DNA of 30,569 nt from a virus. Numbering within the stretch: the stretch's first letter is position 1; the number at the start of each line of letters is the position of its first letter. The stretch is taken from the IMG/VR virus record IMGVR_UViG_3300027987_000511, positions 1 to 30,569 of that record; one strand, written 5' to 3'. The notes beneath the pieces are model-generated. The model did no database searches. It was not told the origin of the DNA and saw only the letters and a program-made list of their open reading frames with translations. This document shows positions 8,577 through 8,900 of the stretch, one piece after another. A program made the position numbers and the translations under genes.

Positions 8577-8900
8577 GATTATCGGTCAGATCAGGCCAGC
8601 GTTATCGTCTTCGTCATGATGGACCGTGTTGGCGTTCGTGTATTGCCTGACAACCGATATCGTGAGGCATGTTCACGTCATTGCACTAGACTACTTCGGA
8701 AACCCGGGTTCGAGTCCCGGCACGCGCTCCAAAAAATCTATGCGCGTGTCGTCTAGTGGTTAGGACACCGAAGCTATAGCGTTATCGTAACCAAGGCGTG
8801 ACATGGGGCAACCGGCGGCGGCGACCACAACAGATACGGGAGGTCGTCGCCGTCCCACTAATTCATCAGCGGCAGGGCTGTCTACGGGGAATGGCTTCCC
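8577..8900 (+). ncRNA. Structured RNA region surrounding the permuted tRNA
   Basis: This stretch, in the only gene-free interval over 300 bases, shows several helices by eye. Hairpin A pairs 8577-8579, 8581-8586 and 8592-8596 with 8659-8661, 8653-8658 and 8645-8649 (14 pairs). A clamp helix pairs 8668-8679 with 8795-8805 (11 pairs, one bulged T, one G-T), enclosing the tRNA halves. Hairpin B pairs 8814-8826 with 8842-8854 (13 pairs, two of them G-T, 15-base loop). A small hairpin GGGAA-TGGC-TTCCC lies at 8887-8900. An 11-base direct repeat (8598-8608, 8778-8788) falls inside. No group I or II intron core was recognised. The structure may position the ends for circularisation or processing of the tRNA. 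Confidence 0.55.
8695..8772 (+). tRNA. Circularly permuted tRNA gene (3' half upstream of 5' half)
   Basis: The 3' half comes first: anticodon-stem strand TTCGG (8695-8699), variable loop AAAC, T arm CCGGG-TTCGAGT-CCCGG (8704-8720), acceptor CACGCGC (8721-8727), U73 and encoded CCA (8729-8731). After a 10-base AT-rich linker the 5' half follows: acceptor GCGCGTG (8742-8748), U8, C9, D arm GTCT...GGAC (8751-8766), A26, and CCGAA (8768-8772). The acceptor strands pair 7 of 7 and the anticodon-stem strands 5 of 5 (6 with G8773-C8694). No complete normal copy exists nearby. The D arm resembles bacterial tRNA-Glu; U73 with G1-C72 and C2-G71 resembles tRNA-Gly. The anticodon cannot be read because the loop must be joined from both outer flanks. 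Confidence 0.8.

Follow-up and report, generated by a model that had tools for sequence, protein, structure and literature searches.

The stretch of DNA analysed here (the window) comprises 30,569 nucleotides (nt) of the IMG/VR virus record IMGVR_UViG_3300027987_000511, positions 1 to 30,569, and carries a gene of the DUF7873 family followed on the same strand by a structured element in which the two halves of a transfer RNA (tRNA) stand in reversed order (Table 1). The gene product matches Pfam PF25283 at 208.3 bits (E 2e-61), passing the gathering score of 27 bits. Read along the chain, the cloverleaf runs from the anticodon 3′ strand through T-arm, acceptor, UCCA, spacer, acceptor and D-arm to the anticodon 5′ strand, and thus has the reversed halves with pairing acceptor (a perfect 7 bp) and anticodon stems that mark a circularly permuted tRNA gene. 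A preliminary description of this locus had enclosed these halves in a clamp helix of 11 pairs with one bulge, and direct reading of the sequence bears out both the halves and the helix, in which one pair is G-U and the bulged residue is a U. The would-be anticodon loop is replaced by a conserved segment without a normal anticodon loop, with position 33 being C. ARAGORN calls no tRNA at the element and no Rfam family matches it in a scan of the window, where the top score at relaxed thresholds is YrlA with 20.8 bits (cut-off 69); no Rfam family describes the element, and a new class had rightly been left open. An ordinary tRNA-Met gene at 10569-10642 on the minus strand is unrelated to the element.

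Table 1. Features of the DUF7873 locus in the window.
Feature	Position	Strand	Details
DUF7873 gene	7739..8560	+	273 aa, start GTG 7739; alignment with relatives begins at Met 7790
Upstream hairpin	8580..8659	+	outer stem 8580-8586/8653-8659 (7 bp), inner stem 8591-8596/8645-8650 (6 bp); read from sequence
Segment inside upstream hairpin		+	CAGCGTTATCGTCTTCGTC; UNA-like repeats at 6-nt spacing
Clamp helix 5′ strand	8668..8679	+	CATGTTCACGTC; partner 8795-8805
Anticodon-stem 3′ strand	8695..8699	+	TTCGG, positions 39-43; 5/5 pairs with 8768-8772
3′ half	8704..8731	+	T-arm 8704-8720, acceptor 3′ strand 8721-8727
3′ half end	8728..8731	+	UCCA: N73 = U 8728, encoded CCA 8729-8731
Spacer, 3′ half to 5′ half	8732..8741	+	AAAAATCTAT
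5′ half	8742..8767	+	acceptor 5′ strand 8742-8748 (GCGCGTG), A26 8767
D-arm of 5′ half	8749..8766	+	Glu-type TCGTCTAGTGGTTAGGAC
Anticodon-stem 5′ strand	8768..8772	+	CCGAA, positions 27-31
Conserved segment at would-be anticodon loop	8773..8790	+	GCTATAGCGTTATCGTAA; clade alignment
UNANNNUNA motif in segment 8773-8790	8782-8790	+	
Clamp helix 3′ strand	8795..8805	+	GGCGTGACATG; partner 8668-8679
Downstream hairpin	8814..8854	+	13 pairs, 8814-8826/8842-8854

DUF7873 and its RNA are a two-part module common to unrelated phages and many bacterial chromosomes. Homologues of the protein occur in 73 INPHARED records (Klebsiella jumbo phages and phages of Vibrio, Rhizobium, Gordonia, Arthrobacter and Rhodococcus, as well as cyanophages) and in four replicons of the plasmid collection, and in the first three phages inspected a permuted tRNA was present in the gap behind the gene (3/3). 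A detector was written for the permuted module that requires a T-arm, a 7-nt acceptor strand, up to 70 nt, a second 7-nt acceptor strand and a D-arm; its criteria are the T-arm, acceptor and D-stem, while the anticodon stem is not among them. It was applied to 91 phage or plasmid loci (80 from IMG/VR, nine INPHARED phages, one plasmid and the window) and to 80 bacterial chromosomal loci, with hits in the chromosomal set counted up to 2.5 kb downstream of DUF7873. The IMG/VR relatives were found by an alignment-based search that gave 96, of which 80 were kept; a scan of viral contigs with the window protein as single query found no relatives. A permuted cloverleaf lies downstream on the same strand at 85 of the 91 phage or plasmid loci, nearly always within 600 nt (two at up to 781 nt), with seven hits elsewhere on the plus strand and none on the minus strand; one of the misses, L125, is truncated where its contig stops, and two modules are present at more than a dozen loci. 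The chromosomal set has it in 69 of 80 loci, again nearly all within 600 nt, in carriers that include Streptomyces, Nocardia, cyanobacteria and others, and most Streptomyces loci hold two modules, at about +89 and +235. Of 150 genomes sampled from the genus to which one Streptomyces carrier belongs, 70 contain DUF7873 itself, so the element is not phage-specific, contrary to what had been suggested. The recurrence of the pair in unrelated phages and bacterial chromosomes makes the element look less like a defective tRNA gene than like a class of RNA not yet described. In the open-access papers that were searched, neither DUF7873 nor permuted tRNAs of phages are described, and on that coverage the novelty of the class is provisional.

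The structure carries the marks of selection. In the window, the 291-nt region has a folding-energy z of -2.9. Comparative statistics were computed on mutually related loci from which near-duplicates had been taken out. In a gap-free alignment of 59 distinct cores, 95.8% of the cloverleaf cells are paired versus 58.6% when shuffled, and covariation stands at 0.976 versus 0.226 shuffled and at most 0.185 when the alignment is slid. The anticodon stem, in which nothing but the register was selected (4 or 5 nt from the T-arm), is paired at 86.4% over these homologues with double changes at all five pairs, and swapping partners between loci lowers its pairing from 3.81 to 2.11 of 5. The covariation check proposed earlier for the helices comes out in favour of the clamp: over 75 loci it scores 20.6 with native versus 15.1 with swapped partners (standard deviation of the swapped means 0.38), an excess of about 14 such standard deviations. 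Compensatory clamps are found in L107, L109, L110, L111, L112 and L117, and among the closest relatives the sequence can differ entirely while pairing is kept (L109 UGCAAGGUGAA, L111 CACGUGCAGCGCAUC, L112 GAUGCAUCAG, L117 CGCGAAAU). The helices are thus real, and the clamp and permuted cloverleaf are conserved by compensatory change. The flanking hairpins that the preliminary description also reported are both present. By eye, relatives keep only the inner part of the upstream one (CUAGGCG/CGCCUAG, CUUGGCA/UGCCAAG), and its outer 7 bp look specific to the window; most relatives of the clade also have hairpins at the downstream position, where a conserved loop, ACGGCAGGYACGCACG, is seen in L106, L107, L109 and L112. 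In L096, the loops of the hairpins flanking the first module (about 6855-6890 and 7020-7065) contain the complementary sequences TGAGGC and GCCTCA, which might form a kissing interaction.

The module also carries a periodic signal. Before the clamp, UNA triplets at exact 6-nt spacing number 236 versus 70 in shuffled sequence over the same 75 loci, with lags 6 and 12 standing out, and just 3′ of the anticodon 5′ strand the UNA/UNANNNUNA signal reaches 54 versus 12; control DNA 2 kb upstream lacks the period-6 signal. The window has such repeats at 8781-8790 (GTTATCGTAA) and within the upstream hairpin (CGTTATCGTCTTCGTC), and the UNA repeat may be a repeated protein-binding unit. The proposed partner is DUF7873, for which RNA binding is suggested by the gene pairing. 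Its AlphaFold2 model is confident (mean predicted local distance difference test score 93.3, predicted template modelling score 0.68), and a sequence search of the PDB and a comparison with PHROGs returned nothing. The best VIA row, 3kdq_A, a protein of unknown function, has a Z of 9.3 but a root-mean-square deviation of 7.2.

How the RNA is used can be weighed against several known systems. In the circularly permuted tRNA genes of red algae and archaea, the 3′ half likewise precedes the 5′ half with a spacer between, and normal tRNA is regained through circularisation; PMC10085705 cites Soma 2014 (PMC3978253) on such genes. The element could be a genuine gene of this kind: its transcript would be cut and its halves joined at the anticodon position, or made circular, and a subsequent cut at the acceptor would release a working elongator tRNA, DUF7873 serving in processing or assembly. 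Its perfect acceptor stems, its canonical T- and D-arms, the CCA encoded in 60 of 75 loci and the presence of some copies inside phage tRNA clusters would all fit. However, only 35 of 62 sequences have U at position 33, and a purine stands at position 37 in 33 of 62, so the joined halves would not form a normal anticodon loop, and no joint is conserved. In the clade of the window, 32-38 is often a sixth anticodon-stem pair (G-C in the window, C-G in L110 and L111, U-A in L106 and L107). Over the 75 loci, N73 is G in 23, T in 21, A in 18 and C in 13, and pair 1-72 is GC, UA, AU or CG as if at random. In a set of 24 phage records, all but one with DUF7873, RtcB is found in five and RNA_ligase above cut-off in six; Vibrio D517, Rhizobium Y1_11 and Gordonia Ronaldo are among the majority of carriers that have neither. 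An RNA ligase or RtcB as a required partner is rejected on this ground. We conclude that the element is not the precursor of a translating tRNA, and a genuine permuted gene seems unlikely. The preliminary description had gone further and suggested that the clamp serves joining of the outer ends, perhaps by self-processing. That proposal finds no support: the joint lacks an anticodon-loop signature, Rfam gives no match, and neither Ro60 nor an RNA ligase is obligatory. Rfam intron models gave no match at gathering, nor locally up to E 5, although a split group I or II core could be missed; in L149, however, the roughly 45 nt between the tandem copies leave too little room for either core.

The architecture is closest to that of YrlA-type Y RNAs (Rfam RF02553), which act with Ro60/Rsr, yet the family score test failed. 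Both have a permuted tRNA-like module of T-arm, acceptor-like stem and D-arm, tethered by the anticodon-side stem and paired with a protein, which is here proposed from gene pairing. The RNA might thus be a Y RNA whose Ro60/TROVE protein is encoded at another site in the phage or by the host, a reading favoured by the module order and the weak window match. We consider it improbable: the match falls far under the gathering score, none of 16 scanned loci reaches 69 bits, TROVE is present in only three of the 24 phage records and absent from the window, and, unlike YrlA, the element goes with DUF7873, has period-6 UNA repeats and commonly encodes CCA. A two-piece molecule like transfer-messenger RNA (tmRNA) is to our minds no more probable. 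In such a molecule the acceptor would be processed by RNase P and charged, while DUF7873 sits at the anticodon position like SmpB; permuted tmRNA genes (RF04321, RF01850) share the reversed acceptor strands joined by a spacer, CCA is encoded, and tmRNA_permuted gives a weak match of 14.2 bits, below threshold. The window instead has a full D-stem and G-C at 3-70, where tmRNA has G3-U70 (G-U at 3-70 occurs in one of 75 loci), and the discriminator bases are random. Equally doubtful is a 3′ element within the DUF7873 mRNA that acts in cis, in autoregulation or stability, with no separate RNA product; in the phage set the element is always downstream, on the same strand and near the gene, and the UNA repeats begin just after the stop codon, but tandem modules and strong covariation exceed the needs of a simple regulator. 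An origin as an attachment site is rejected as the main account, since the module recurs beside DUF7873 with covariation. Searched by BLAST against INPHARED, the RNA hits only ordinary tRNA-Glu genes and a 42-nt stretch of Burkholderia phage Mica (L001 3001-3042). This stretch corresponds to the T-arm, acceptor, CCA and spacer of the window, lies beside an integrase gene and is possibly an attachment site.

We favour, with somewhat better than even confidence, a structured noncoding RNA that mimics a tRNA, is tethered by its anticodon stem and is bound by DUF7873. This reading builds on the association of gene and RNA, the cloverleaf, the clamp helix and the period-6 UNA signal, and a mimic rather than a tRNA is indicated by the free choice of N73 and of pair 1-72 and by the lack of a U33 signature. 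The RNA is probably co-transcribed with the DUF7873 gene. DUF7873 would bind the UNA-hexamer segments as an oligomer, and the resulting particle would present the mimic with elbow and acceptor exposed and the anticodon end buried; the mimic may then occupy a host factor that binds tRNA, the most plausible target being an enzyme that cleaves or processes tRNA, and the RNA would act as a decoy or regulator. A comparable role has been proposed for the tRNA-like domain of YrlA, which would inhibit an anticodon nuclease by competition (PMC7790460). Several points weigh against our preference. The clamp is not favoured in the free minimum-energy fold of the window or with the tRNA fixed, and its support is comparative. 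The loci were collected via similarity to the window's own DUF7873 protein, and the pairing percentages of T-arm, acceptor and D-stem are partly selected, as these were search criteria. The encoded CCA would likewise be in keeping with an RNA that is charged or processed by RNase P. Finally, Foldseek searches of PDB and BFVD with the DUF7873 model gave no match at E<=0.001; DUF7873 has no confident fold match, so its RNA binding is something we infer.

In Nocardia, a tRNA-like sequence in canonical order stands behind the permuted module, about 280-350 nt after DUF7873 (L190, L192, L196-L198, L206, L207, L209, L218, L258, L266-L282); its body is nearly constant, its acceptor stem is short and without CCA, and its anticodon varies by species (CTC, ATC, GTT, CTG, TCC, TCG, GTA). 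It is conceivable, if less than probable, that DUF7873 defines a new ribonucleoprotein class of phages and bacterial chromosomes, in which oligomers on UNA-hexamers display cloverleafs in two orientations as decoys in tRNA-cleavage conflicts: one permuted and tethered by the anticodon arm, the other the Nocardia type with canonical order, truncated acceptor and species-variable anticodon. Elsewhere, an ordinary tRNA gene often directly follows the permuted module (L098, L100, L124, L128, L129, L131, L132, L134 and others), and L129 and L134 share a permuted acceptor, yet ARAGORN calls Thr(tgt) and Leu(taa); where tRNAs are called near other copies, most of the calls seem to reflect adjacent genes or genes joined wrongly.

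A parallel is offered by the Ro-like phage protein DUF7788, which also shares records with permuted tRNA-like RNAs but belongs to another family and goes with another conserved motif (ACAGCAA..UUAA). A pattern scan for permuted Glu-type tRNAs returned 93 stretches, nearly all tandem normal tRNAs, and one other case with a perfect cross-paired acceptor, L094, a record without DUF7873 that encodes DUF7788 (phrog_850, 'RNA-binding protein'). The 372-kb contig of L026 also encodes DUF7788, and the L026 RNAs score 38.9 bits for YrlA. Hairpins with the motif stand with YrlA-like permuted tRNAs on the minus strand of both (L094 at about 3900-4800, L026 at 2400-4300), and for one of these hairpins the model of Dictyostelium Class I RNA, an RNA class not known to have an assigned function, gives 34.5 bits (cut-off 41.5). 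Since the DUF7788 records carry such RNAs as well, permuted tRNA mimics appear to accompany two protein families in phages.

The DUF7873 module is thus an RNA-protein pair of wide distribution that escaped the annotation examined here, ARAGORN and Rfam being silent at the element of the window. It suggests that permuted tRNA shapes can be maintained as mimics, under strong covariation and without a usable anticodon, and it supplies a hypothesis for the function of DUF7873. The variation of the Nocardia anticodons makes the proposed decoy role directly testable in culturable bacteria.
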